From positions 1,221 to 65,220 of the forward strand of contig UCNG01000020.1 of NCBI GenBank assembly GCA_900473915.1: DNA of 64,000 nucleotides. The letters are read 5' to 3'. Shown here piece by piece: positions 28,524-29,090 of the stretch (positions within the stretch are counted from its first letter, which is position 1; every line of letters begins with the position of its first letter). Source of the DNA: Hyphomicrobiales bacterium. GTDB taxonomy: Bacteria; Pseudomonadota; Alphaproteobacteria; Rhizobiales; Rhizobiaceae. The position numbers were made by a program, and so were the translations under genes. The notes below the pieces were generated by a model. That model was not told where the DNA came from. It made no database searches and was given only the letters and a program-made list of their open reading frames with translations.

Positions 28524-29090
28524 ATGGCGCAATTCGTCGTTCTTGAACCGGAAGATACCCAAGCAATTCCCGGAAAAGTGGGAACCGGTTTTCCGTCTGG
28601 AACTGCGATGCAAAAAAGCCTTGAGCAAACCGTGTTCGTGCGCGACGGATTCCATGTGCTGGGACTGCTGTTGCCCTTCGTCTGGCTGCTGGCGCAGCGT
28701 CTGTGGTTCGAAGCCTTCGCTGTGTTGGGCGTCACGATCCTGCTTGGTCTCGTTGCGACCCACTTCGGCATTGACGGCGCGGTGCCTCTTCTAACCCTGT
28801 TCATGTCGCTCTTTGTCGCGCTGGAAGGCGTCAACTGGAAGATCGCCAAGCTCAGGCGTCAGGGTTTTGTCGAAAAGGCGGTCATAGACGCGTCCGATCT
28901 GGAAGAAGCGGAAATCCGCTATTTCCACGGCCTCGAAGATGCGGGCAAGCCAGCCGCACCGCTTGCGGGCCTGCCTGCCCCCGACTGGACCCCCGGCTCG
29001 ACCACCGACTGGACTCAGGCAACCCCTCGTCCCATCTATTCCTCATTTGGCTCAACGATCGGATTCGTGGGTCATCGCGGAGAAAACTGA
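28524..29090 (+). CDS. DUF2628 membrane protein with in-frame repeat insertion
   Basis: This 188-residue protein has helices at about residues 45-60, 62-82 and 88-104, followed by a soluble proline-rich tail. The DUF2628 family occurs in his operons of Rhizobiales; its function is unknown. Residues 13-30 (QAIPGKVGTGFPSG...) are encoded by a copy of the dispersed palindromic repeat (28561-28612), so the N-terminal segment appears to be a translated repeat. It sits between hisB (3 bp upstream) and hisH (2 bp downstream). A GTG at 28521 is an alternative start. Confidence 0.82.
   Translation: MAQFVVLEPEDTQAIPGKVGTGFPSGTAMQKSLEQTVFVRDGFHVLGLLLPFVWLLAQRLWFEAFAVLGVTILLGLVATHFGIDGAVPLLTLFMSLFVALEGVNWKIAKLRRQGFVEKAVIDASDLEEAEIRYFHGLEDAGKPAAPLAGLPAPDWTPGSTTDWTQATPRPIYSSFGSTIGFVGHRGEN
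28561..28612. repeat. Type A palindromic repeat inside a coding sequence
   Basis: The core CCGGAAAAGTGGGAACCGG, followed by TTTTCCG, matches the type A core at 2942-2958 and 34195-34215. Outer arms are degenerate (GCAATTCC / GGAACTGC). It is read through without a stop in the DUF2628 gene. Confidence 0.85.

Follow-up and report, generated by a model that had tools for sequence, protein, structure and literature searches.

Rickettsia and Wolbachia supply the best-known cases of palindromic repeats within protein genes. Rickettsia palindromic elements (RPEs), 105-146 bp long, occur as in-frame fusions in Rickettsia proteins; intragenic copies of ERIC and NEMIS are also known (PMC2229807). RPEs within genes are described in PMC10969869 as well, and their copies are reported to lose repeat identity over time (PMC6649704). 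Here, we analysed a 64,000-nucleotide (nt) stretch of contig UCNG01000020.1 from a Hyphomicrobiales bacterium (GCA_900473915.1), referred to in its whole length as the window, in which a short palindromic element lies in frame within the gene of a DUF2628 protein, between hisB and hisH. We consider it probable (at roughly 0.85) that a palindromic repeat without a gene of its own entered the DUF2628 gene close to its start and that it is translated there, giving an insert of 18 residues.

RPEs and the Wolbachia palindromic elements are multicopy palindromes found in frame in conserved proteins and also between genes (PMC2229807, PMC3767692, PMC10969869, PMC6649704). The initial annotation of the window had read the element as a mobile palindrome of this kind, and the reading is supported: the present repeat is palindromic and has many copies, sites that are filled in one species and empty in another exist, and in-frame copies were found in several unrelated genes of relatives, genes that have orthologues without the insert. 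Both the likeness and the differences are drawn from descriptions and not from sequences. The net insertions of 54 and 57 nt and the repeat units of 57 and 59 nt fall short of the 100-150 bp of RPEs, the bacteria belong to a different order, and the element is rarely found in genes. Filled and empty sites vary among related species here, whereas each rickettsial orthologue is described as carrying its RPE insert at the same locus (PMC3767692). The present family is thus far shorter than RPEs and comes from a different order, and its related species differ by one insertion at known sites.

The element in the DUF2628 gene is 54 nt long and consists of a 45-nt hairpin (28563-28607) followed by an A-rich tail of 9 nt (28608-28616), with the sequence GCAATTCCCGGAAAAGTGGGAACCGGTTTTCCGTCTGGAACTGCG + ATGCAAAAA; its translation is AIPGKVGTGFPSGTAMQK. 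The initial annotation had placed a repeat core within this coding sequence, which is borne out, at 28561-28612 and residues 13-30, which are corrected to 28563-28616 and residues 14-31. The 19-mer CCGGAAAAGTGGGAACCGG, identical to the family core, is present without mismatch at 28570-28588, and allowing up to three mismatches gives four matches in the window, compared to 0.03 expected from shuffled sequences. A covariance model of the family scored the DUF2628 copy at 71 bits (E-value 2.5e-17), the best of seven window matches with E < 1e-4 (Table 1); the training set of the model included this copy, so that the score is no independent test. The frame is unbroken, as had been claimed, since the DUF2628 open reading frame (ORF) runs from the ATG at 28524 to the stop codon ending at 29090. 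We thus confirm that a repeat copy stands in frame inside the DUF2628 gene. A true start downstream of the element, a possibility raised in the initial annotation, is unlikely because the N-terminal residues upstream of the insert, MAQ(F/Y)V(V/I)LE, are conserved, with M1, A2, Q3, V5, L7, and E8 invariant in 16/16 aligned orthologues. The PF10947 match spans residues 29-112 of the protein, and the insert is therefore mostly N-terminal of the domain. A GTG codon is found between the hisB stop codon and the DUF2628 ATG. With the NCBIfam model NF047999 (Erum7620/ECH_0207 family), the DUF2628 protein scored 36.7 bits, far below the cut-off of 90, and it was left unassigned.

Table 1. Genes around the DUF2628 site and copies of the palindromic repeat family in the window.
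Feature	Position	Strand	Basis or score
DUF2628 (PF10947) gene, between hisB and hisH	28524..29090	+	ORF + Pfam
hisB, imidazoleglycerol-phosphate dehydratase; flanking gene used in trees	27912..28520	+	
hisH, named from position + Pfam GATase; flanking gene used in trees	29093..29743	+	
Palindromic element in DUF2628 gene	28563..28616	+	family model 71 bits; net 54 nt absent in G013, G010, G007
Family copy, gap between His_biosynth gene (hisF by position) and PRA-PH gene (hisE)	31311..31364	+	62.3 bits
Family copy	2..55	-	60.1 bits
Family copy, GCATGTCTCC arm type	34186..34240	+	45.6 bits
Family copy, more distant	20945..20998	+	29.2 bits
Family copy, more distant	788..836	-	29.1 bits
Family copy, partial	33615..33649	-	28.0 bits

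An alignment of DUF2628 orthologues, proposed as a check in the initial annotation, was run with the window and 35 genomes of the genus (n = 36; L036, from another genus, was left out); the nearest genome compared, G001, shares 35% of the window's sampled 31-letter words. Filled and empty sites were found among close relatives. The element is present in six sequences (the window, G001, G024, G019, G011, and G022), and 30/36 orthologues are without the residues, which speaks against their being shared by ordinary conservation. Between the window and the empty G013, 1/39 nt differs from the ATG to codon 13, and the left flanks of the empty G010 and G007 are identical to that of G013; 3' of the insert, 12/60 nt differ between the window and G013. 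The DSK flank, a second haplotype, carries the element in G024 and G019 and lacks it in G029, G016, and G002. Each of the two haplotypes, EDTQ and DSK, is seen both with and without the element, and the EDTQ and DSK elements are distinct in a stem pair and in the tail. No element was found in the five outgroup DUF2628 proteins examined (L244, L246, L247, L249, and L250). The DUF2628 N-terminus is variable in length and sequence, as would suit an ordinary variable linker that resembles the repeat by chance, but given the identical 19-mer, the score of 71 bits, the net 54 nt lacking in relatives, and the presence of the element in unrelated genes, the odds of such a coincidence are negligible. 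In Falsochrobactrum ovis (L241:3001-3120), the insert that the DUF2628 N-terminus contains at this site is longer and of another sequence, and may be a decayed element (14/2000 shuffles align equally well); it was left out of the counts.

A 22-residue peptide probe of the element gave matches in other long frames, with a match in 20/35 genomes, and 18 of 30 loci were examined for context. Because the probes used in this work were peptides from the sense frame and represented few types of the element, in-gene copies of other types or in reverse orientation may escape them. In-frame copies were found in three further genes, whose orthologues were sought in 35 genomes each and aligned at 30 loci per gene. 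The gene of AddB contains an exact 57-nt insertion in 5/30 aligned loci, and AddB of G002, outside these 30, is a likely sixth carrier, judged from its probe matches. An exact 57-nt insertion is also present in XdhC, in two of the 30 loci (G024 and G028). It is read there in another frame (QFQEKWEPVFRPELR type), and two reading frames of the element are therefore in use. In the ligase-associated DEXH helicase, the element is located between motif I and LYISPLKAL in 7/30 loci, two of them degenerate. The insert-bearing helicase, AddB, and XdhC proteins exceed the cut-offs of the NCBIfam equivalog models TIGR04121 (1140 bits; cut-off 850), TIGR02786 (574; 486.5), and TIGR02964 (323; 161.6), respectively. 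Pfam DEAD and XdhC_C matches extend across the inserts, and the AddB insert stretch has no Pfam match; the solved chains 2we7 and 5v9x were compared by sequence alignment only.

At the threshold applied, an order-wide peptide search gave a match in 22/249 genomes, one of which is G001. The frames of many matches are short or contain stops, and most matches were left unclassified. Of 22 loci examined from this list (one being the DUF2628 gene of G001 and one lacking the central element), only L206 seemed conserved on either side of the element. This locus encodes a MaoC-like protein of G097, a genome from another family, with an internal copy of the element. The Pfam match stops about 10 residues before the insert, but the alignment with the homologue L420 continues on either side of the insert, leaving a gap of 24 residues.

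The palindromes of Magnusiomyces mitochondria that are bypassed during translation are similar in size to the present element, and bypassed inserts are under no need to keep the frame. A hairpin skipped by the ribosome in the same manner would account for a palindrome within genes, and the yeast mitochondrial elements are described as transcribed but bypassed (PMC6649704). However, among the filled helicase, AddB, and XdhC alleles examined, 14/14 have a length divisible by three and are stop-free, degenerate ones included; decayed alleles that lost 3 or 15 nt are still in frame. Ribosome skipping is thus very improbable, and from the sequences we infer that the insert peptide is made.

The distribution of filled alleles was compared with the gene trees. 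On the concatenated tree, the carriers require at least four (DUF2628), five (helicase), five (AddB), and two (XdhC) changes, counts that do not separate gain from loss. Carriers as one clade were rejected on each gene's own tree by the approximately unbiased test (p = 4e-76 for DUF2628, 4e-6 for helicase, 6e-5 for AddB, and 1.5e-4 for XdhC). Such a pattern means that either the same codons were struck repeatedly, or short tracts were exchanged between species. One old insertion per gene, followed by many precise excisions in the descendants, would also produce patchy carriers and the number of changes seen. Yet most members of the genus and the five outgroup DUF2628 proteins are empty, which would demand many exact losses, and near-perfect palindromes occur alongside decayed ones; we regard this history as quite unlikely.

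Independent entry of the element into the same codons in different lineages, the sites being preferred targets, fits the rejection of a single carrier clade in all four genes tested, the filled and empty states of both DUF2628 flank haplotypes with their differing elements, and the filling of XdhC at an identical codon in the distant genomes G024 and G028. On the other hand, the five aligned AddB carriers have a common tail pattern, TNGGAAAAAAAG, and unusual left-flank codons are common to G006 and G027, which points to one origin and spread via recombination. Apart from A-rich sequence, no clear target motif is apparent. Recurrent targeted insertion is possible but rather unlikely. As far as the alignments go, AddB would favour exchange, and the two DUF2628 haplotypes would favour repeated insertion.

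In the reading that we prefer, insertion of a gene-less repeat that is then translated, a unit of about 57 nt (a 45-nt hairpin and an A-rich tail) would most likely be copied, and the copies would land in many places. Those in genes would survive only if the net insertion is divisible by three, the frame is free of stops, and the site is a tolerant linker. Surviving inserts would then drift through substitutions and in-frame indels, and filled and empty alleles would be exchanged between species through recombination, or the same sites would be struck again. In all likelihood the insert is a passenger that the protein tolerates rather than a functional part, and repeat DNA here seems to be giving rise to new protein sequence. 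A bolder proposal is that the palindrome has spread through the order, repeatedly and precisely entering the same codons of several conserved genes in different lineages and perhaps leaving them without a trace, independently of the known Y1 transposase, and feeding new peptide segments into enzymes; this we hold to be unlikely. Comparison of related species can now address movement of the element, its choice of targets, the rate of its decay inside proteins, and whether the peptide is tolerated or put to use.

Several observations weigh against insertion of a mobile palindrome as described. By eye, no target duplication is seen in AddB, and one of at most 3 nt is seen in XdhC. The Y1 transposase domain (PF01797, the sole transposase family searched) was found in 0/9 genomes, compared to 5/14 control genomes. 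One DUF2628 codon adjoining the insert also differs between the window and G013, and in the DEXH helicase the element stands in place of the usual linker instead of cleanly interrupting it. When 65 G001 copies besides that in DUF2628 were examined, none was upheld as in-gene, by a rough test that requires 20 codons to either side and overlooks copies close to the ends of genes, the DUF2628 copy included. One of the 65 has an open frame with a positive coding score on both sides, but lies opposite an HSP20 gene. A stricter codon-usage rule missed the known cases L080 and L206 and, for the window's own copy, picked the wrong strand. The in-gene state of the element is, by this measure, rare. Folding of a shifted range as RNA gave no signal; for the correct core, the fold was computed as DNA alone. 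On the supporting side, the 45-nt core folds, as DNA, better than all 200 shuffles (z -3.8), and four cores form hairpins as DNA, their z-scores lying between -2.9 and -4.4. Also in support, covariation was scored in 74 distinct cores, picked on the left arm and loop with the right arm disregarded. In the 11 outer pairs, 86% of cells are paired (74% in shuffles), and changes on both sides of the stem number 74, compared to a mean of 21.7 and a maximum of 32 in 1000 shuffles, counts that related copies inflate; 14/74 cores pair poorly. The stem arms do covary. The inner stem is followed by a CGT that is nearly constant and often extends to CGTC (consensus positions 32-35 of alignment A2).

The family is abundant in individual genomes. 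At E <= 0.001, the 54-position model found at least 126 matches in G001, at least 119 in G024, and at least 43 in G028, these being lower bounds from scoring 150 first-look candidates of 3244, 3733, and 1572, respectively. Most of the G001 copies listed are of the GCATTTCCAGCAAAAGTG type. Of the 65 copies of this genome, 29, 46, and 33 are stop-free in the three forward frames, and 60, 63, and 62 in the reverse frames. Copies of the GGAAAAGTGGGAACCGG type are few (nine at up to three mismatches, in six genomes). Six of them are the DUF2628, helicase, and XdhC copies, and the other three, with a common context before a thiolase-like frame, are taken as one intergenic locus. Two other types of the element served as peptide probes in a search for further in-gene cases, and 16 regions were examined among the matches listed. 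Several frames score as coding on both sides of the element (L403, L407, L414, and L415). L403, L407, and L414, for which the opposite strand was scanned, were rejected since their frames have no Pfam match and known domains are on that strand; the frame of L415 was also rejected as it has no Pfam match.

REPs (repetitive extragenic palindromes) have a Y1 transposase as their partner. Like the present element, GTAG/CGTC-tagged REPs are short multicopy palindromes, and CGT(C) follows the inner stem here, inside the unit; in contrast to them, the element consensus contains no GTAG. CGTC repeats are, moreover, said to be missing from Brucellaceae (PMC3733652). A REP with a Y1 transposase was rejected, PF01797 being absent from all nine genomes searched. 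Miniature inverted-repeat transposable elements have terminal inverted repeats, a target duplication, and a matching transposase. Here the whole unit is a palindrome, duplication by eye is nil in AddB and at most 3 nt in XdhC, and the transposase search covered PF01797. The Bru-RS1 and Bru-RS2 repeats of Brucella are palindromic repeats of the same genus and are classed as intergenic (PMC2267715). They were compared by length only, 103 and 106 bp (PMC10800456) against the 57/59-nt unit; it is no more than a guess that one Bru-RS might comprise two units from the present family. The Cod-2 repeats of Corynebacterium diphtheriae, which are described in coding sequences in different frames, intragenic ERIC, and Correia/NEMIS are likewise small repeats found in coding sequences (PMC2267715, PMC2229807), but they belong to other bacterial groups and were set beside the element by description only. 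In Rfam, seven sources (80,083 bases) gave no match above the gathering threshold, and a known RNA family was rejected as the identity of the element. No report of a protein-coding palindrome in Rhizobiales was found in the literature searched, which left subscription papers mostly outside, and five core strings had no match in the text of the papers searched.

In some loci the element supplies a C-terminal tail and the stop codon. One 301-residue frame has such an end in three genomes (L408, L409, and L410, near 1498-1560), as does a TenA-family gene in two (L066 and L068, near 1504-1560). These tails, and a frame in L174/L175, were excluded from the counts of internal insertions. Tandem arrays are also found. 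The array at L437:1278-1725 (G033:C1) repeats a 57-nt unit of this family 7.8 times and begins four bases past the end of a 253-residue frame, which presumably encodes a protein resembling a LuxR-type regulator. With a unit length divisible by three, several frames of this array are open and would read a 19-residue repeat. Two other arrays have a 59-nt unit, with 5.2 copies at L438:1195-1502 (G004) and 3.2 copies at L439:981-1166 (G024).
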